Positions 5,057-13,400 of a stretch of DNA of 53,091 nt are shown one piece after another. Origin of the DNA: Phycisphaerae bacterium (lineage in GTDB: Bacteria > Planctomycetota > Phycisphaerae > JAJVII01). Every line of letters starts with the position of its first letter. The stretch's first letter is position 1. The stretch is taken from NCBI GenBank assembly GCA_022072085.1, contig JAJVII010000028.1, positions 1-53,091 on the forward strand. Reading direction: 5' to 3'. The position numbers and the translations under genes are program-made. The notes under the pieces are model-generated. The model searched no databases, was not told where the DNA came from, and saw nothing but the letters and a program-made list of their open reading frames with translations.

Positions 5057-5640
5057 CTGCCCCCTGCCCGGCCTCGGCGGCCTTCTGAGGACTTCGTGCC
5101 GCACCGCACAGAGTCGTTGGGCAGCCATCAGGCCTGGGCGGGACGGCGTATTTAAGCAACGGCCGATAGAATCGCATAAATTACTGTGCATAATTTAGTT
5201 ACGGCTTACTTGTGGCTGGGTGTTGGATTTTCAGGAATATTTGTTTGCGTGGCTGATAGGATCGTGATATATTTCACATGACGAATAACTCAGTGGACTT
5301 GGGAGCGGTTGGGGTCCGAATCCTCCCACCCCATAGGCTCAACACCAGCCCCAACCGCTCCCTTCCTGTTTCGTCTGCATTGCCGCCTCTTGAATACGGC
5401 ACCTGGGAACGCGCATCCAATGTAGGCAATGAAGTCGAAGCGGGTTCGGGGTTGACCTGTCGGATTGCACGGACCGCCGCAAGGACGATCCTGGCATTCC
5501 CCCATGAGGCCAACCCCTCTTTCTTGTACGGGGCGGAGCATTCAGACCAACTCTTCATCCGCGCCACCCCCTGTCCAACGGGGTCGTTCGTGCACTGTCG
5601 TCCCTTCCGGATTGTCGGCCGGAACCGGCCACAGGCGCAG
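5057..5640. other. Non-coding region left of the integrated element
   Basis: No convincing gene is seen in this region. It contains a TAAATTA/TAATTTA inverted repeat (5177-5197), an AT-rich stretch at 5150-5290, a perfect 14-bp inverted repeat (5301-5314 with 5349-5362), and a tRNA-3'-end-like sequence at about 5311-5332. The plus frame opening at 5278 is not considered a gene upstream of the att site. Confidence 0.5.
5301..5362. repeat. Perfect 14-bp inverted repeat with a tRNA-like T-arm in the loop
   Basis: GGGAGCGGTTGGGG (5301-5314) and its exact reverse complement (5349-5362) enclose a 34-base loop. The loop begins TCCGAATCCTCCCACCCCAT, which resembles a tRNA T-loop and acceptor 3' strand. 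No matching tRNA 5' half lies upstream. It may be a decayed tRNA or an old attachment scar. Confidence 0.4.
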
Positions 5641-5644
5641 ACCG

Positions 5645-5672
5645 TTGACACTCTGTGCCCGTCGAATATACT
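5645..5672 (+). promoter_or_regulatory. Native tRNA-Cys promoter, now separated from its gene
   Basis: TTGACA (5645-5650), a 16-base spacer and TATACT (5667-5672) form a near-consensus promoter. Predicted initiation is 5-6 bases before the tRNA-Cys 5' end at 5684. Only the 5' half of the tRNA remains here, so transcription now runs into the integrated element. Confidence 0.7.
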
Positions 5673-5682
5673 CATCGTTTCC

Positions 5683-5727
5683 CGGCCGCGTAGCCAAGTG
5701 GACCAAGGCGACGGATTGCAAATCCGT
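5683..5727 (+). repeat. attL: left 45-bp direct repeat, 5' half of tRNA-Cys
   Basis: This is identical over 45 bases to 10281-10325. It covers the tRNA-Cys acceptor 5' strand, D-arm and the whole anticodon arm (loop TTGCAAA). Identity stops abruptly after TCCGT on both sides. That is the pattern left by a tyrosine integrase using an attachment core in the anticodon region of a tRNA gene. Confidence 0.9.
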
Positions 5728-6006
5728 AACAGCGAATCCGAAACCCATTCACAGTCAACACCTTGCGAAGATCGCCCTGGGCGTCTTGGCCTTCTGCTTG
5801 GCGCTCTTGCTGCGCAAGTCGCCCCCGCCGCCCCCGACCTGGCGGGGCTCCTGGCCGCCTGGCTTGCCCTGCCCGATCACGTCAAGGCGACGATTCAAAC
5901 GCTGGTCAGGGCGACGGTCACCGGCAACGGCGGGCCGGCTGGCGACCCAATGGCTCTGTCGGCCCCGACCGCCGGCGAAGCAAAATCCGAAAGTCAATCA
6001 TATTGA
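5683..6006 (+). pseudogene. Displaced 3' end of the integrase gene (C-terminal tail)
   Basis: The frame through the att core (RPRSQVDQGDGLQIR) is the same here as in the integrase at 8517. In the excised circle the integrase would run from codon 603 straight into the 92 sense codons 5728-6003, ending at TGA 6004-6006. The tail is protein-like, with a predicted amphipathic helix (DLAGLLAAWLALPDHVK followed by ATIQTLVRAT). From recollection this resembles the C-terminus of intact planctomycete integrases. The other frames are Arg/Ser-rich shadows. In the integrated state this piece lacks its own good start codon. It could be read as a fragment only by chance. Confidence 0.65.
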
Positions 6007-6041
6007 CTTCTAAGCCAATAACCCGATAGGATGAACTGAGC

Positions 6042-6293
6042 ATGGCCAAAGTCACCTTGACCCCGGAAGCGGCCGACGGGCTGGAAGACCTGCCCCTTGC
6101 GATTCATGCCCGCGTGTTGTCGCTGCTGGAGCGGCTGGCCAAGTGGCCGGCCGTCAGCGGGGCCAAGCCGCTGTCGGGGCGGCTGGCCGGGCGATACCGC
6201 CTTCGCACCGGGGATTACCGCGTGCAATTCCGGGTGCAAGGCCAGGCCATCATTGTCGAGAAGATCGGACACCGCGACAGGTTTTACGAGTGA
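6042..6293 (+). CDS. RelE/ParE-family toxin
   Basis: An 83-residue protein with the compact RelE/ParE fold pattern. An N-terminal strand (KVTLTPEAADGLEDL) leads to two helices with LLERLAKWP, then the core KPLSGRLAGRYRLRTGDYRVQF typical of mRNA-interferase-like toxins, and the C-terminal strand IIVEKIGHRDRFYE. The basic residues and terminal HRDRFYE fit a RelE-type RNase acting on ribosome-bound mRNA, though gyrase inhibition (ParE) cannot be excluded. It lies 9 bases before the antitoxin gene in the usual toxin-first HigBA/RelE-Xre order. TTGACT (6003-6008) and TAGGAT (6027-6032) upstream could be a weak promoter. Transcription from the captured tRNA-Cys promoter could also reach it. Confidence 0.85.
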   Translation: MAKVTLTPEAADGLEDLPLAIHARVLSLLERLAKWPAVSGAKPLSGRLAGRYRLRTGDYRVQFRVQGQAIIVEKIGHRDRFYE

Positions 6294-6302
6294 GGCGAAG
6301 CT

Positions 6303-6650
6303 ATGGTCAAGATCATCGAACTGGCCGGTAAGCGTTGGGCAATCATGCCCGAAAAGGACTACAAGCGGTTGTCCGCCCAGGCCGGGGCCGACGCCGGCGG
6401 GCCGGTCCTGCCCAAGCCCGACGCCGAAGGCAACTTCCCGGCCGTGGAGTATGCTCGCGTGTCGCTGGCCCGCAAGATCATCAAGGCCCGCCAACAGGCC
6501 GGGCTTACCCAGGCCGCCCTTGCCCGCCGCGCCGGCATTCGCCCGGAAACGCTGAATCGGATTGAGAAGGGAAAGACCTCACCCGACACGGCCACTATTG
6601 CCAAGATCGAGCGGGCCTTGGAAACGGTCGGGGCAACCGCTGAAACCTGA
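6303..6650 (+). CDS. Xre-family antitoxin
   Basis: A 115-residue partner of the RelE/ParE toxin. Residues about 1-55 form an N-terminal strand-rich part (VKIIELAGKRWAIMPEKDY) that probably contacts the toxin. Residues about 58-108 are a Cro/C1-type helix-turn-helix (KARQQAGLTQAALARRAGI, then RPETLNRIEKGK). The expected roles are neutralising the toxin in the cytoplasm and autorepression of the operon. It follows the toxin by 9 bases and is followed by a GC-rich hairpin at 6684-6705, so toxin and antitoxin form one unit inside the mobile element. Confidence 0.85.
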   Translation: MVKIIELAGKRWAIMPEKDYKRLSAQAGADAGGPVLPKPDAEGNFPAVEYARVSLARKIIKARQQAGLTQAALARRAGIRPETLNRIEKGKTSPDTATIAKIERALETVGATAET

Positions 6651-6683
6651 CCGCTTGCCCGCCGGAATCCCCAAGAACGCACC

Positions 6684-6705
6684 GGGCCGCCCAGGTTGGC
6701 GGCCC
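6684..6705 (+). terminator. Hairpin after the toxin-antitoxin pair
   Basis: A perfect 8-bp stem GGGCCGCC/GGCGGCCC with a 6-base loop lies 34 bases after the antitoxin stop. It is followed by GCGCTGTTT, a weak T run. Confidence 0.5.
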
Positions 6706-6790
6706 GCGCTGTTTCCGCCGCCGGCGGCGAGCGCTCCGCCCCGCGAATTGACCGGCGACGTCATCCGAAATTCTGGACGCACTGACAGAT

Positions 6791-6976
6791 TTGGAGTTGG
6801 ACTCGCTGAAGGCCCGCGCCGTGGCCGAAGCGCCCAACGATTTCGCCCGGGGAAAGTACGCGAAGGCCGACCCCCGCAAGGATCGGGCCTTGCGGACGGC
6901 GATGGTCAGGCTGTTGAAGGATGACGCGGGCCGGCGCGAAAATCCGACCAAGAACGGCCCCGACGGCAAGGAATGA
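6791..6976 (+). CDS. Small charged protein of unknown function
   Basis: A 61-residue frame that starts with TTG (no clear ribosome binding site) and ends 3 bases before the recombinase start, which suggests translational coupling. The open frame extends back to about 6752, so the true start may be a rarer codon upstream. Composition is highly charged (Lys, Arg, Asp, Glu), with one predicted helix, DRALRTAMVRLLKDDAG. No family is recognised. It could be an accessory directionality or DNA-binding factor for the recombinase, but only its position suggests that. Confidence 0.4.
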   Translation: MELDSLKARAVAEAPNDFARGKYAKADPRKDRALRTAMVRLLKDDAGRRENPTKNGPDGKE

Positions 6977-6979
6977 ACC

Positions 6980-7924
6980 GTGGCGGACTGGCGACACACA
7001 ACGCCGATGCAACTGCTGGACTCGCACTTGAACCGGCTGCCCGGCACAACGCGGGCCTACGCGGCTGACCTTCGGGCCTTTGCGGCGTTCCTGAAAGCCG
7101 ACTCGCCCCAAACGGCTGTCGAAATCATTGTCGGGGCGGAACGCGGAGCGGCGCGGCGAATGCTGGAAGATTTCAAGAACGCCAGCCGGGCCAAGGGCCT
7201 GAGCCTTGCCACGACGCGGCGGCGAGTGTCGAGCCTCTTGGGGCTGCTGGCCCTGGCCCATGAATTCGACATCATCCCGTGGGCGATTCGGATGAAACTG
7301 CCGGCGGCCGATCCGATCCGGGACACAGCCGGCCCGGGCCGGCCGGTTGTGGAGCGGATGATTGAATTGTGCCAGCAACGTGACGACGCCAAGGGGCGTC
7401 GGGACTACGCGATACTATGCCTGTTGTTCTACAACGCCCTGCGAGCCGGCGAAGTGCTGAGCCTTGACCTTCGCCACGTTGACTTGTCCGCCGGCGACGT
7501 GCTGATTGCGGCCAAGGCCCGCTGGGACCGGGTGCGCATGCCGATCCCGTTGGTCACGCGTCGGGCAATCGAGCAATGGCTACAGCATCGGGGCGACGCG
7601 CCCGGCCCGCTTTGGCTGTCAATGCAGCGGGGCGAGGGCGAGCGGCGACGGCTGACCTATCGTGGGCTGTATGAAATGGTGCGTACGTTGGGCAGACAGA
7701 CCGGGGCGAAGTGCTGGCCCCACGCCTTGCGGCACGCGGCGGCAACGTCGATGCTGAACCTGAGCAACGGCAATATCGGCTGGGGCCTGGCCCTGACCCG
7801 TCACCGCGACCCGAAGACATTCCTGGCCTACGCGGACCGGCGGGGAATGGCCATGCGGTCCGCCGTGGAACTGCTGGCCGGTGGCCGCCAATTCCGTTCG
7901 GAGCCGCCAACTGTTGAGAACTAG
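6980..7924 (+). CDS. XerC/XerD-like tyrosine recombinase
   Basis: A 314-residue protein of typical Xer length. An N-terminal core-binding domain (about 10-110) is followed by the catalytic domain. The catalytic set is Arg155 (NALRAGEV), probable Lys179, His248-x-x-Arg251 (HALRHAAA), His275 and nucleophile Tyr284 (FLAYADRR). It starts with GTG preceded by AAGGA at about 7 bases. It probably cuts and rejoins DNA within the element. It is the second recombinase of this small element beside the integrase at 8517, and its substrate is unknown. It could resolve element dimers or cooperate in integration. A C-terminal Arg/Pro tail is short and unremarkable. Confidence 0.85.
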   Translation: MADWRHTTPMQLLDSHLNRLPGTTRAYAADLRAFAAFLKADSPQTAVEIIVGAERGAARRMLEDFKNASRAKGLSLATTRRRVSSLLGLLALAHEFDIIPWAIRMKLPAADPIRDTAGPGRPVVERMIELCQQRDDAKGRRDYAILCLLFYNALRAGEVLSLDLRHVDLSAGDVLIAAKARWDRVRMPIPLVTRRAIEQWLQHRGDAPGPLWLSMQRGEGERRRLTYRGLYEMVRTLGRQTGAKCWPHALRHAAATSMLNLSNGNIGWGLALTRHRDPKTFLAYADRRGMAMRSAVELLAGGRQFRSEPPTVEN

Positions 7925-8237
7925 CGTTGTCAACACGATGACAGGGCGCAAAGCTTTACGGGGTCGGGATCGGCGGTCCCAAGGCAATGTCCGGTCCGCG
8001 TCGGCCAACTTGACGGTTTTTCGGGCCGTTGACGCGCAGTCAGGACATAAGTTAGTGACGCCCGCTGGCAGGCTGTGGGTCCTTCCTGGCGGTCCTGTCC
8101 CGATGACTGTTATGGACGCCGTGGCGGATACGCACAGACTTTCTTTCTCGCGGTCTTCGGATGGGCCAGACGCGCGGAGCTTGCCGGCCTGCCGGGCGGG
8201 GTGTAACGTGCATCGGCAATCACTGAAAGGGCGAATC
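7925..8237 (+). other. Intergenic region between the two recombinase units
   Basis: About 310 bases without a convincing gene. Two TTGAC motifs (about 8013 and 8028) may belong to promoters for the downstream Xre and integrase genes, but no well-spaced -10 box was found. The open frame that begins at 7881 has no ribosome binding site and is read here as the 5' extension of the small Xre gene. Confidence 0.35.
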
Positions 8238-8453
8238 ATGGCCAAGCGGAAGACGCTGGCGGATCGGCTGATCCAGGAAATCCGGCGAGCCGAGCGGGGC
8301 GGGCTGACCCGCTACCGATTGGCTGGGCTGTCGGGCGTATCCGAAAGCCAGCTATCCCGGATCGTCAACGGGCAGATTGTCCCGACGCTGACGACGGCTG
8401 AAAGGATCGTCAACGCCCTGAAGCTGCAAATCAGCATCGGCCCGAAGGAATAG
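8238..8453 (+). CDS. Small Xre-type helix-turn-helix protein
   Basis: A 71-residue DNA-binding protein consisting of one helix-turn-helix (about residues 20-65), with RYRLAGLSGVSESQLSRI as the turn and recognition helix and TLTTAERIVNALKL after it. The ATG at 8238 is chosen because GAAAGG precedes it and the domain begins there, although the frame is open to 7881. It lies 63 bases before the integrase, in the position of an excisionase or of a repressor controlling integrase expression. The fold is confident; the role is inferred. Confidence 0.75.
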   Translation: MAKRKTLADRLIQEIRRAERGGLTRYRLAGLSGVSESQLSRIVNGQIVPTLTTAERIVNALKLQISIGPKE

Positions 8454-8516
8454 CCTTGCATATTTACAAGTATCGGCTATGAATAGGGAAGGCGGAAAGC
8501 AAAAGGCAGGTGGATC

Positions 8517-10481
8517 ATGCGAGTCTTCCAATCGACCTACAAGGATCGGCACGGGCAGACGCGGCGGACCGCTCGATTCTACGTTGAATTCGCCGATCAT
8601 CGGGGCGGCCGGCGGCGCGTGCCGGGGCTGACGGATCGGCGGGCGACTGAAGCCATTGGCCGCAACATCGAAGCCCTTGTGCGATTCAAGGCAAGCGGCG
8701 AGGCCCTGCCCGTTGCCCTGACGAAGTGGATTGAGGCCTTGCCGGCCAAGCAACGCGAACCGTTGGCCCGTTGCGGGCTTCTGGACGCCGGCAAGGTGGC
8801 TGCGCTTCGCCCGCTGGCCGATCATGTTGAGGGCACGGCGGACGCCCCAGGTTGGCGGCAACATCTGGCAGGCAAGGGCAACACGTCCGGCCACGTTGAC
8901 CTTTCGGTTTCCCGCGTCAAGAGCATCATCGACGGCTGCCGATTCCGCTTCTGGTCTGACGTTTCGGCGAGCAAGGTGCTGAGCTTCCTTGACGGCCTTC
9001 GGGCGGACCGGGCCAAACTGGACGCCGCCGGCAAGCCGATGGTCGATGAAGCGTCGGGCCAGCCGATTACCCGGCCGGGGCTGTCGGCCGCGAGTTTCAA
9101 CTACTACCTGACCGCGTTCAAGAGCTTCTGCCGTTTCATGGTCAAGGACGGGCGGGCCACCGAAAGCCCGGTGGCGCACCTGGACGGGCTGAACGTGAAG
9201 ACGGATCGGCGGCATGATCGGCGGGCGCTGTCGGTCGATGAAATCCGCTGGCTGCTGGATGTGACGGAAGCCGGCCCGCTGCCCCAGGCGGGCCAGAGGC
9301 GCGAGCCCGTGACTCGATTCGGCATGGACGGACCGGCCAGGTCGATGCTCTATCGGCTGGCCGTCGAAACCGGGTTGCGGGCAGGTGAACTTCGCAGCTT
9401 GACGCGGGCGAGTTTCGACCTGACTGGTGAACCGGCGACAGTGACGGTCGCGGCGGGTTACTCAAAGCGCCGGCGGGCCGACGTGCTGCCCTTGCGGGCG
9501 GAGACGGCGGCGAAACTGGCGGGCTTCCTGTCGGCCGGTTTGAAGTTTCCCGATGCCGCCGCGTTCACCATGCCCCCCGCCGGGCACGTTGCCAGGATGT
9601 TCCGCGCAGACTTGGCAGACGCCCGCACCGCATGGCTGGCCGACGCCCCGACGCCCCAGGACCGGTGCGAGCGGGACAAGTCGTGTTGCCTGGAGTATGC
9701 CGATGCGGCTGGGCGGGTTGCCGACTTCCACGCCTTGCGGCACACGGCCGGCAGCCTGCTGGCCGCCGCTGGCGTTCATCCGAAGGTGGCCCAAAGCATC
9801 ATGCGGCATTCGACCATCGACCTGACCATGAGCCGCTACACGCACGTCTTCGCCGGGCAGGAAGCCGACGCCGTGGCGGACCTGCCCGACCTGTCGGCCC
9901 CGACGCGACAGGCGGCCGCGCTGACCGGGACCGACGGCCGCCGCATGGAAACCATCCCAAACGCCGTAGGAAGCCCCAGGATCAACGCGGACCGCCAAGG
10001 CCGACCTGTTTGGCCGCAGGCCGATTCGCGAGCCGCTGGCGGCCCTGTAGTGCCTCCGGGCGAGTCCCGCGACGGCGACGGTGGCCCGGACGATCCGCCG
10101 CCGGCTAGCGGATGCTTGCAGGAAAGCAAGGATTCCGTCTTGGCCGTTTGCTTGGCGCATCGGGGCGGATTCTCGACGACTGCTGCGGACTGTAACGGAC
10201 AGAGCGGCCGGGCGGGCCAAAGCAACAAGGCCCTTGAAAACAAAGGACAAACCGCTTATCGTGCTGCGTTTGACGCATCGCGGCCGCGTAGCCAAGTGGA
10301 CCAAGGCGACGGATTGCAAATCCGTTATCCGTGGGTTCGAATCCCACCGCGGCCTGTTCCCTCAATCCCCCGGCCACCAGGAGGGGCGCCGGCCGGCGTC
10401 CCAGTCGCGCTGCTCGTACTTCGCGCCGCGCTCGTCGCGGGTCAGGACGAGCTGGTGGGCTTTCAACCACAGGGCCTTTGA
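8517..10481 (+). CDS. int: Tyrosine integrase of the tRNA-Cys element, C-terminus altered by integration
   Basis: A site-specific integrase, 654 codons as integrated. Residues 1-110 form a Lys/Arg-rich arm-binding part and 130-230 a core-binding SAM-like domain. The catalytic domain holds Arg288 (ETGLRAGE), Lys317 (GYSKRRR), His405-x-x-Arg408 (FHALRHTA), His431 and nucleophile Tyr441 (MSRYTHV). A long low-complexity linker follows. Codons 589-603 are the att core itself, and the frame then continues through the rest of tRNA-Cys to a stop at 10479-10481 in flanking DNA. The last 51 residues are therefore not element-encoded. In the circle the gene would end in the tail at 5728-6006 (695 residues). 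All catalytic residues are upstream of the exchange. The linker DNA also contains the promoter of the rebuilt tRNA. ATG 8517 follows AAGGCAGG. Confidence 0.88.
   Translation: MRVFQSTYKDRHGQTRRTARFYVEFADHRGGRRRVPGLTDRRATEAIGRNIEALVRFKASGEALPVALTKWIEALPAKQREPLARCGLLDAGKVAALRPLADHVEGTADAPGWRQHLAGKGNTSGHVDLSVSRVKSIIDGCRFRFWSDVSASKVLSFLDGLRADRAKLDAAGKPMVDEASGQPITRPGLSAASFNYYLTAFKSFCRFMVKDGRATESPVAHLDGLNVKTDRRHDRRALSVDEIRWLLDVTEAGPLPQAGQRREPVTRFGMDGPARSMLYRLAVETGLRAGELRSLTRASFDLTGEPATVTVAAGYSKRRRADVLPLRAETAAKLAGFLSAGLKFPDAAAFTMPPAGHVARMFRADLADARTAWLADAPTPQDRCERDKSCCLEYADAAGRVADFHALRHTAGSLLAAAGVHPKVAQSIMRHSTIDLTMSRYTHVFAGQEADAVADLPDLSAPTRQAAALTGTDGRRMETIPNAVGSPRINADRQGRPVWPQADSRAAGGPVVPPGESRDGDGGPDDPPPASGCLQESKDSVLAVCLAHRGGFSTTAADCNGQSGRAGQSNKALENKGQTAYRAAFDASRPRSQVDQGDGLQIRYPWVRIPPRPVPSIPRPPGGAPAGVPVALLVLRAALVAGQDELVGFQPQGL
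10234..10262 (+). promoter_or_regulatory. Element-borne replacement promoter for tRNA-Cys
   Basis: TTGAAA (10234-10239), a 17-base spacer and TATCGT (10257-10262) end 19 bases before the rebuilt tRNA-Cys. This DNA lies inside the integrase coding sequence and comes from the element. The native promoter stayed at 5645-5672. Confidence 0.45.
10281..10325 (+). repeat. attR: right 45-bp direct repeat, overlapping tRNA-Cys and int
   Basis: This is identical to 5683-5727. It supplies the 5' half of the functional tRNA-Cys and also codons 589-603 of the integrase. Confidence 0.9.
10282..10355 (+). tRNA. tRNA-Cys (anticodon GCA)
   Basis: A complete 74-base cloverleaf. The acceptor GGCCGCG/CGCGGCC, the anticodon stem ACGGA/TCCGT with loop TTGCAAA, and the T-arm GTGGG-TTCGAAT-CCCAC are all perfectly paired. 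Discriminator base T73 is the known identity base of cysteine tRNAs. CCA is not encoded. It is rebuilt by the integrated element: bases up to 10325 lie in the duplicated repeat and the 3' half is chromosomal. The 3' end is 6 bases from the convergent gene ending at 10362. Confidence 0.95.
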
Positions 10482-13400
10482 CTCGGCCGTCTCGCCGGTC
10501 AGCAGCGCCAGGCCGTCGGCCACCGTGCGATAGTAGCTGGCCAGCACCGGGGGCGAACTGCCGCCGGAGGCGACCAGGGCCTCCTCGGCCTGCAAGGCCT
10601 TCGCCGTCGCCTGGCGATAGGCCTCGATGTCGCCGGCGTCCTTGGCCGCGTTGGCCAGTTGGAAGTAGCCGTCGCGCAGCGAGCCCTGCGCGGTCTTCTT
10701 CATGTCCCCCCGCTGCCAGGTGGGCTTGTTGGCGAACAGTTCCTCCTTCAGCGCCATCTCGCGGGTCAGGGCGTCCGTCCGGGCGGCGGGGTCCATGTGA
10801 GCGTAGGCCAGTGCCTTGGCGTGACGGACTTCCTCCTCCTTCGTCGCGTGCAGGCCGTCCCACTTCATCTTTTCCTGGGCGTCGGCCAGCCGCTTCTCGG
10901 CCGCGGCGATTGTGTCAGGATGGTCGGCTGAGTACTTCCGCGCGTTGTCCAGGGCGGCCTGGGCCTGGTCGATCTCGCGCTGGGCGGCGGCGACGGCCCC
11001 GGTCACGCCGGCCAGACGCCACTGACGCTCCTTCTCCTCGTAGTCGGCCGCCTTCTGCATGGCCGCCTGGTGGTCGGCCAACTCCTTGTCCGGGTATACC
11101 AGTTGGGCGGTGCGCTGCACCGTCTTGCCATCGGCGGTCGCTTCCAGCGTCACCACGGCCGGCGGCGTGGCGGTGCGGGGAATCGCCAGCGTCGCGTTGG
11201 CCAGGCCGAAGCTGCCCGGCCACTGCGACGTGAAGACGTAGTGCGTCACGCCGCCGAATGTGGCCTTGATCCGCACGTGGTCGTAGTGATAGTCCATGTT
11301 GCCCGGCCGCACGGTCAACAGCAGGCCGTCGCCGATGCGTTTCTCGACCGGGCCGGTGTCGGGCTTGCCGCCGGAGCGCACGATGGAGATCACCGGCGCC
11401 TCCGGGCCGATGACGTTGCTCCAGGCGACGGGCGTCGCCGACTCGCCGCCCTTGGCCCACTCGCTGTAGACCATCAGGGCGGCCCGGTAGTAGGGCGGCC
11501 GCTCGATGTAGCCCGTCGGCTGATGGGTCGCCGGGTCGATCACGGCCATCGCCGCCTTCGGGCTGACGGGGAGCTGGAACCGCCGCTCGTCCAGCCAGCC
11601 GGTGCTCTGCTGGCCCTCGACGGCCTTGGGCCAGTTGCCCATCAGGTATTCCACCTGGCCGGCGCGCTTGGTCCACGGGCCGTCCGGGGAGTCGGCGCCG
11701 AAGACGATCAGGTCGCGATACGCGCCGCCGCGGCTCTTGCGAATCTCCGGCAGGGCGTCGCATGCGACGACGACCCAGTCGTTCGAGGTGTCGGCGAACG
11801 TGGGCCCCATCGCCAACTTCACCTCCGGCGGCTTGCCCCGCGCCGACAGCGGGATCGCTTGGCCAGCGCCGGTCCGCTCGTAGCCGGTCCACGTCCAGTC
11901 AGCCGGGCTCAGCCGGGCCGGCGTGTCGGGGTTCTCGTCCAGCGGCAGGGCGACGTGCGTGCCGGCCAGGTCGCTGACTGCCAGCACGCGCAGCTCCAAC
12001 TTCTCGGCGCCGACGGGCAGGTCGCCGGGCGCGACAGTCCCGACGTGCAGCAGTCCGTCCTGGCGGGCCTCGGTCGCGACGGTACGCCCGTTGATCTGGC
12101 AGATCGGCTGGCCGGCTGACTTGACCGGGCAACTGAACTCGACTTCGATCTTCGCCCCGCCGGCGGCCGGGTCCAGCGCCGCCGAAGCGCCGGTCTTGGC
12201 GGTGCGAGCGACGGCCAGGCCCGCGCCGTCGGCCTGTTCCTCCCACTGCACCTCGCAGACGGTCCGGTCGCCCTGGCTCAACCGTACGCGCCGGACACGC
12301 GGCGGGTCGGCGCTGGCCAGTTGCAGGCCGAAGGCCTTGCCCGCCTCGTCGGCCGAGTAGCGCGTGACAGCCAGTATCGTCGCGTCGTTGTCGCCCAGGC
12401 CGTAGGGCACGCGGAGGACGTAGCCGCCGGCCGGTTCGGAGAACTGCCCCTTGAACACGCTCCATCGGCCGCCGGTCTTGAGCATCGCCTGGAGCGAGAG
12501 TTCCTCCTTGCCCGCCTTGACCAGCACGTCCAGCGGGGCGTCGTCCGGCGCGGCGTCGGGGCGCTGGACGAGGAAGTAACGCGTGCCGCATCCGGCGATG
12601 CGCCCCAGCGCCGCCGGGAAGACGAACCGCCGCCCCGACACGCCGGGCGCCCCGTCGCTCCAGTCGATCTGGAAGCTGGCCGACTCGGGCGTGGTGAACA
12701 AGTCCTGGTAGAAGCCGGCCAGGACGCTGTTGAGCGCGACCGGGTTGTTCGGCTGAACGCGGAACTCCCGCTGGCGGGCGCCGGGCAGGCCGGGATATTT
12801 CTCCGCGTCGCGCAGCCGGCACTCCTCGGGCGCCTGGTCGGTCAGGAACGCGCCGATCGCGAAGCGGTCGAAGTAGTCGCGGAAGTGATCGCCGACCGTC
12901 GCCCCGTCGCCCAGCGCCGCGGCCAGCGCCGCCAGCGCGGGCGCCGTGCGGCTGGTTCCCTCGAGCGTCTTGCGGACCACCTCGGTCGCCGATGGATGAT
13001 GCCGGTCGAGAAAGTGCCACCAGACCGCCGCCCCGTACGGCCGACCGTCCTCGTCCAGCGAACTGTAGAGCATGCTGCCGGCCGGGCGCGAGTCGAACGT
13101 GAGCGGGCGCTGCATGAACAGGATGTAGCGACTCATGTGCTCGACGTGCGAGACGTAGGGGGCGAAGACCTGGTTGGCCGCCCAGGTCGCGGTCGATTCT
13201 TTCATCCACGGATCGCCGATCGGGCAGTAGTGCCACTGGATCGCGTGAAACAGCTCGTGGGCGGCGGTGACGGCGATGAGCTTCTGTCGGCCGACCTTGC
13301 GGTACTCGATCAGCCGGCGCAGGTTGATGCCCATGCGACAGTCCGGCGCGGGGGCGCCGCCGACGTACTTGCCCATCACCTTGCCGGCGACGCGGACCTG

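Follow-up and report, generated by a model that had tools for sequence, protein, structure and literature searches.

A small integrative element in a Phycisphaerae tRNA-Cys gene with a candidate element-borne tRNA promoter and an integrase gene probably cut at its own attachment site

Islands in tRNA genes are usually called harmless since integration leaves a complete tRNA gene behind its host promoter. Here, we analyzed a 53,091-nucleotide stretch of DNA from a Phycisphaerae bacterium (assembly GCA_022072085.1, contig JAJVII010000028.1; this whole stretch is called the window below), in which an element of approximately 4.6 kb is integrated in a tRNA-Cys gene. Several described systems share parts of its arrangement. 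The Islander collection of 3919 islands holds 3760 with a 3′ fragment of the tRNA gene and 159 with a 5′ fragment (PMC4383910), a bias towards the 3′ part that was also stated in the original prediction for this locus, made from the sequence alone. A 2021 review of archaeal recombinases, citing Williams 2002, reports that a rebuilt bacterial tRNA keeps its original promoter with very few exceptions, and it calls the cutting of an element's own integrase gene by integration exclusively archaeal (PMC8371274). In the phage Mx8, attP lies inside int and integration replaces a 112-residue C-terminus with 13 residues, after which the enzyme is less active; the new int 3′ end is said not to inactivate the integrase (PMC6070905, PMC4701971). 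In ICEKp1, integration puts int under the control of the tRNA-Asn promoter (PMC13023037). In the window, we consider it probable that a small integrative element, whose tyrosine integrase belongs to a planctomycete family with attP in the 3′ part of int, swapped the promoter of the tRNA gene and severed the tail of its own integrase upon insertion. The arrangement belongs to the known minority class, with the uncommon direction of capture; what is new is the support that relatives lend to a tRNA promoter borne by the element, the finding that the direction of capture has changed repeatedly, and a bacterial integrase family that apparently severs its own C-terminal end.

The element is bounded by an exact 45-bp repeat (5683-5727 and 10281-10325), made up of 44 tRNA bases (5684-5727 in the left copy) and one upstream base, which a repeat finder extends to 48 bp at 98%. 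The repeat spans the 5′ half of tRNA-Cys(GCA), from base one to the end of the anticodon stem. Its left copy is the attL core, a displaced tRNA-Cys 5′ half, while the right copy is the attR core, the 5′ half supplied by the element to the rebuilt tRNA-Cys(GCA) at 10282-10355, the single tRNA detected by ARAGORN in the window. Both the half copy and the complete gene are on the + strand. As in the Islander 5′-fragment islands, which are inserted in a tRNA gene with a displaced 5′ fragment on one side and a rebuilt tRNA on the other (PMC4383910), the fragment lies upstream in the same orientation, a tyrosine integrase gene is found between the two copies, and the length of approximately 4.6 kb falls within the 2-200 kb range. 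The word promoter is absent from the available Islander excerpts (PMC4383910); to this class, the window element adds a candidate replacement promoter and an int gene that spans attP.

The genome of the window comprises 5.49 Mb in 72 contigs and is 97% complete. An RF00005 search of this genome, with each match then classified by isotype, gave 48 tRNAs, among which the tRNA-Cys(GCA) of the window is the only Cys. Likewise, a DNA search of the same assembly for a second full tRNA-Cys, the finding on which the original prediction would have fallen, matched only the 44-nt half. As tRNA-Asn was also not found among the 48 tRNAs, probably owing to an assembly gap, the missing second tRNA-Cys falls short of proof.

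Two promoter-like sequences on the + strand precede the two tRNA copies. The first, TTGACA-16-TATACT at 5645-5672, matches 11 of 12 consensus bases and now faces the left end of the element; the second, TTGAAA-17-TATCGT at 10234-10262, matches 9 of 12 and lies 5′ of the rebuilt tRNA. A scan of both strands between 4500 and 12000 returned three such sites, compared with 0.9 ± 0.9 in shuffled sequences. In G001, which belongs to the same family, the intact tRNA-Cys is preceded by a native-like promoter with TTGACA and TATACT at the matching position, so the left flank of the window element is most simply taken as native. Comparison of the window with G001 recovered only this promoter-tRNA stretch, and no half-tRNA repeat was found at the G001 tRNA-Cys. 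The promoter, half-tRNA and tRNA coordinates of the original prediction all hold, as do its att core and its native promoter left behind at the left end.

Relatives of the element were compared using a score for the best sigma-70-like pair (maximum 12) with the -10 box 4-30 bases 5′ of the tRNA. The same-direction set, in which int and tRNA point the same way, comprised 16 element ends (the window, 13 named loci, G001:C282 and G030:C27). A score of at least 8 was reached upstream of the tRNA in 10 of these 16 ends, compared with 170 of 3200 shuffles, 3 of the 54 ends of opposite-direction elements and, when the scored window was moved 100-500 bases upstream in the same-direction elements, 2 of 240 positions; the same-direction elements share kinship and are not independent, so the p-values of this comparison serve as a guide only. 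For reference, the same score is reached upstream of 16 of the 47 tRNAs scored in the window's genome. The window and four relatives also have a TTGnAA or TGGTAA motif 48-49 bases 5′ of the tRNA; its codon phase is 1 in the window but 2 in the four relatives, which indicates a role of the DNA rather than of the protein. For the six same-direction elements with both ends available, the native and element scores are 11/9 (window), 11/8, 8/9, 7/9, 9/8 and 9/9. In one of the relatives (L254, 6.9 kb, in tRNA-Leu), the identity between attL and attR begins immediately 5′ of the -35 box and extends through the half-tRNA, so promoter and half-tRNA travel together there; the upstream regions of the two ends of a G001 tRNA-Ser element also seem alike. 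An element-borne promoter 5′ of tRNA-Cys, as originally predicted, is thus supported by comparison of relatives.

Some observations weigh against this interpretation. Six of the 16 same-direction elements lack any site scoring 8, and where element promoters are present they match only 8-10 of 12 consensus bases. Additionally, the assembly seems to be short of at least one tRNA gene, and no empty site from the same species was found, the flanks of G001 not being syntenic with the window. An alternative that we regard as unlikely, albeit the most serious one, is that tRNA-Cys is released by RNase cutting from a read-through transcript of the integrase gene, the hexamers at 10234-10262 being a chance occurrence or part of an integrase-binding site. 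The int gene does lie upstream on the same strand with a frame overlapping the tRNA, no terminator-like site was found between them on the + strand, and the promoter region sits between an arm-like site and the core, a possible binding place for integrase or host factors; the six elements without a site also fit read-through. Nevertheless, promoter-like sites are enriched at that place in same-direction elements only, and the L254 repeat takes in the promoter. A far less probable reading treats the left half-tRNA as an old remnant and the right promoter-tRNA unit as native, with no swap. The lack of a syntenic or empty site would allow for such a remnant, but the half copy stands behind a promoter resembling that of the intact G001 gene, the same layout recurs in other both-ended elements in other tRNAs, and the int frame runs on across the joint.

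In the integrated state, int is read from 8517 to 10481 on the + strand (654 aa), with no stop before or inside the tRNA, and its last 51 residues are host-coded. The only domain found is PF00589, at residues 278-445, upstream of the att core. The int frame enters the tRNA in most tRNA-adjoining relatives, in both directions. Beyond the distal half-tRNA, at 5728-6006 on the + strand, 92 codons and a stop form a candidate severed C-terminal tail, which would share the frame of int only once the element is a circle; the joined frame is open across attP and homologous tails are found in relatives. Therein, the motif DLxxxxxAWxxLPxxxKAxILAMV (5836-5919, + strand) has invariant W, L and P residues in 25 aligned tails. 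Integration would thus swap the 92-residue tail for 51 host-coded residues, with 695 aa predicted in the circle and 654 aa in the chromosome. This feature was missed in the original prediction, which had the element promoter hidden inside int: the promoter does lie within the int frame, but attP lies in int as well, so the C-terminus of the integrase is replaced. In sum, the observation behind that prediction is confirmed, and its interpretation is partly supported.

Tails were located with a hidden Markov model profile, a simpler pattern search having recovered none. The profile matched in 30 of 41 related genomes at E ≤0.05, where the weakest matches may be due to chance. When 63 tails were compared with 64 integrases, a pair was accepted if both members came from one genome and shared 16 or more bases of tRNA repeat; an integrase partner was obtained for 23 tails, and in 21 of the 23 pairs the int frame was open through the core into the tail. 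By chance, approximately one third of the pairs would be in frame; several of the 23 come from one genome (G037), so not all are independent. A tRNA-Leu pair of G002, whose exact repeat is too short to be counted among the 23, is in frame by eye. Set against a joined gene are the two pairs in which the frame fails (G015:C61 and G009:C23) and a codon-position test of the tail, which gave no clear third-position excess.

Unsplit forms were found among the relatives. The 15,590-bp contig JAQTSY010000011.1 (L247/L417) has a 127-bp identical end overlap, which closes it to a circle of 15,463 bp without a tRNA gene, and it encodes one unbroken 569-aa integrase containing both an antisense-tRNA-like peptide and the tail. 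This contig is filed under a Paceibacterota metagenome-assembled genome and is probably misbinned, its integrase kin being planctomycete; by eye, type I restriction genes seem to be among its open reading frames (ORFs). A contig from IMG/VR (L388/L420), listed as linear in that database, likewise holds integrase and tail in one ORF, and in G028:C13 the tail is joined directly to int. That the tail is a separate small gene and the open joined frame a coincidence is the least probable alternative, for although integrated copies never have tail and integrase in one frame, conservation is poor between the catalytic domain and the core, and two pairs are out of frame, it has to contend with the 21 of 23 open pairs and with these fused forms. 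At a further locus (L289, G030:C25:21991-22938), a damaged int is continuous with both tRNA-like sequence and the tail, and it may be an unsplit copy that has decayed.

An AlphaFold2 model of the L247 integrase, based on 34 aligned rows, had a mean predicted local distance difference test (pLDDT) score of 78.8. Confidence is mostly good in the N-terminal strand-and-helix domain and in the remainder up to approximately residue 400. The pLDDT values fall below 50 at residues 407-534, where the tRNA-coded peptide lies, and this stretch is followed by terminal helices at 536-543 and 550-566, in blocks averaging 58 to 88. In this model, the att core looks to fall within a disordered integrase linker, which would explain how varied tRNA halves are tolerated in varied frames; such a linker would offer a simple reason for having an att site inside a protein gene while targets change.

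Taken together, the comparisons indicate that integration severs the C-terminal end of the integrase across a planctomycete family. By analogy with Mx8, the best guide to tail function here, loss of the tail may alter integrase activity. Both have a tyrosine integrase with attP in its coding sequence and a new 3′ end upon integration; Mx8, however, is one phage with its kin, whereas here a planctomycete family has its own conserved tail, and where Mx8 exchanges 112 residues for 13, the window element would exchange 92 for 51 (PMC6070905, PMC4701971). A search of a phage collection showed no sequence kinship between the window integrase and Mx8. The archaeal SSV-type integrases also have their gene split by integration at a tRNA att of 40-50 bp, but in them the catalytic part is in Int(C), cut from Int(N), whereas the window integrase keeps its catalytic part joined to the start codon and loses only the tail (PMC8371274). 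An SSV-type suicidal integrase was rejected, as the gene is split on the opposite flank of its catalytic part and no PF16795 (Phage_integr_3) match was found, only PF00589. Cutting of an element's own integrase gene at integration would be common in a bacterial group, contrary to the statement of the 2021 review (PMC8371274).

Regarding the direction of capture, the tRNA next to int was compared with int in the best 80 of 561 named relatives of the window integrase: 13 were in the same direction, 54 in the opposite direction, and 13 had none in reach. Among the 64 integrase matches in the 41 related genomes, a tRNA was found within 1 kb in 50 (6 same, 44 opposite). A quick maximum-likelihood tree of 80 integrases was built from the window, two loci of the related genomes and 77 of the 80 named loci (L210, L269 and L275 are left out, and G030 is represented by a partial row on a long branch). 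Both directions are intermixed on this tree, with 14 changes of the 5′ label against a shuffled mean of 14.8 and at least seven direction changes forced by the starred branches, so that a single clade for 5′-half capture was ruled out. The closest kin of the window integrase are L200 and L202, both in tRNA-Leu in the same direction, and L201, in tRNA-Arg in the opposite direction. The direction of capture thus seems free to change, and the integrase may use the core in either orientation because the core lies in the anticodon stem-loop, a near palindrome. As a point against the overall interpretation, 10 named same-direction elements yielded no displaced 5′ half within the locus examined, so their type is assigned by direction alone. 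No close relative of the integrase turned up among annotated phages and plasmids, and none of the matches listed in literature searches on integrases of Planctomycetes or Phycisphaerae, or on integrase genes that contain attP, dealt with this family.

Other 5′-half copies were also observed. The window's genome contains a second 5′-half element (L182, G000:C33), with the half at 8204-8241 and tRNA-Leu(TAA) at 13146-13231; its integrase frame ends before the tRNA. In G002:C105, two 5′ half-tRNA-Cys copies (L069 and L070, at 79448 and 88287), each with its own promoter-like sequence, lie 41 and 32 kb before the full tRNA-Cys (120863), perhaps as a tandem array. In the tRNA-Leu element of G002:C44 (L181/L202), the element and host halves differ by eye in paired D-stem changes, GCG/CGC versus ATG/CAT, and the host tRNA-Leu seems to have become a chimera.

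In the exchange that we propose, attP in the 3′ part of int would hold half a tRNA gene; in the window element, and in the relatives nearest to it, two arm-like repeats flank the site. Most family members would carry the 3′ half, with int antisense to the tRNA, and the window element and a recurring minority would carry the 5′ half, with int in sense. Both recombining sites would consist of a promoter, a half-tRNA and their own downstream part, and a crossover in the half-tRNA would exchange the downstream parts. The host tRNA promoter would then face the left end of the element, where the severed int tail is followed by the toxin-antitoxin genes, and the rebuilt tRNA-Cys would have the element promoter (10234-10262) in front of it; the same crossover would part the catalytic portion of the integrase from its C-terminal tail. 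What can be read from sequence in this proposal is the 5′-half capture, the one tRNA-Cys in the assembly, the frame continuity across attP, and the unbroken int in a circular relative. We infer that tRNA-Cys is made from the element promoter and that the left-end genes are expressed from the host tRNA promoter, which fits the anatomy, every gene found in the element being on the + strand. In the tRNA-Leu elements of G001 and G002, genes with family matches also run in the direction of their tRNA.

ICEKp1, too, has its element genes expressed from a host tRNA promoter while integrated and from another promoter after excision, but its tRNA keeps its own promoter, whereas here the tRNA itself would be shifted to an element promoter (PMC13023037). 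Likewise, an essential tRNA is made dependent on the element in the tRNA-dependent lysogeny of mycobacteriophages; there, integration at a core of approximately 10 bp does not rebuild the tRNA, and a tRNA gene of the same isotype is present on the phage, whereas here a half-tRNA with a promoter is supplied and the tRNA is rebuilt (PMC10865867). Tested as an explanation of the window, this type of lysogeny was rejected given the 45-bp core, the rebuilt tRNA and the presence of no other tRNA in the window. Handing an apparently essential tRNA to the promoter of a mobile element would mean that losing or silencing the element end could harm the host. More tentatively, and with some doubt, one recombination might act as a two-way switch, in which promoters are traded between an essential tRNA and cargo and a folded C-terminal hairpin is removed from the integrase; cargo expression, tRNA supply and integrase activity would then differ between circle and chromosome, and a core within a disordered linker would permit new tRNAs in either direction with the enzyme unharmed.

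A pair of 23-bp repeats, 91% identical, flanks the core on the + strand at 10136-10158, on the int side (190 bases before the core end), and at 5782-5804, on the tail side (approximately 55 bases after). The same repeat pair occurs at similar distances in the tRNA-Leu elements of G001 and G002, and in the L417 circle another pair of repeats shows an identical internal period of 12 bases. By anatomy, these repeats are probably arm-binding sites of the integrase.

The remaining genes of the element, all on the + strand, begin after the tail with a ParE/RelE-like toxin (6042-6293; PF05016, E 3e-8; phrog_1213) and a helix-turn-helix (HTH) protein that is its probable antitoxin (6303-6650; PF01381). 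An HTH regulator (8238-8453; PF01381, scanned from 8178) precedes int. Just left of the element, at 5293-5329, a degenerate stretch weakly resembles a tRNA 3′ half (76% over 37 bases to tRNA-His, E 0.11) and may be a chance likeness or an older att scar. Between the antitoxin and the HTH regulator, the element also encodes a second tyrosine recombinase, XerC-like (6980-7924; PF00589, with TIGR02224 below its cut-off).

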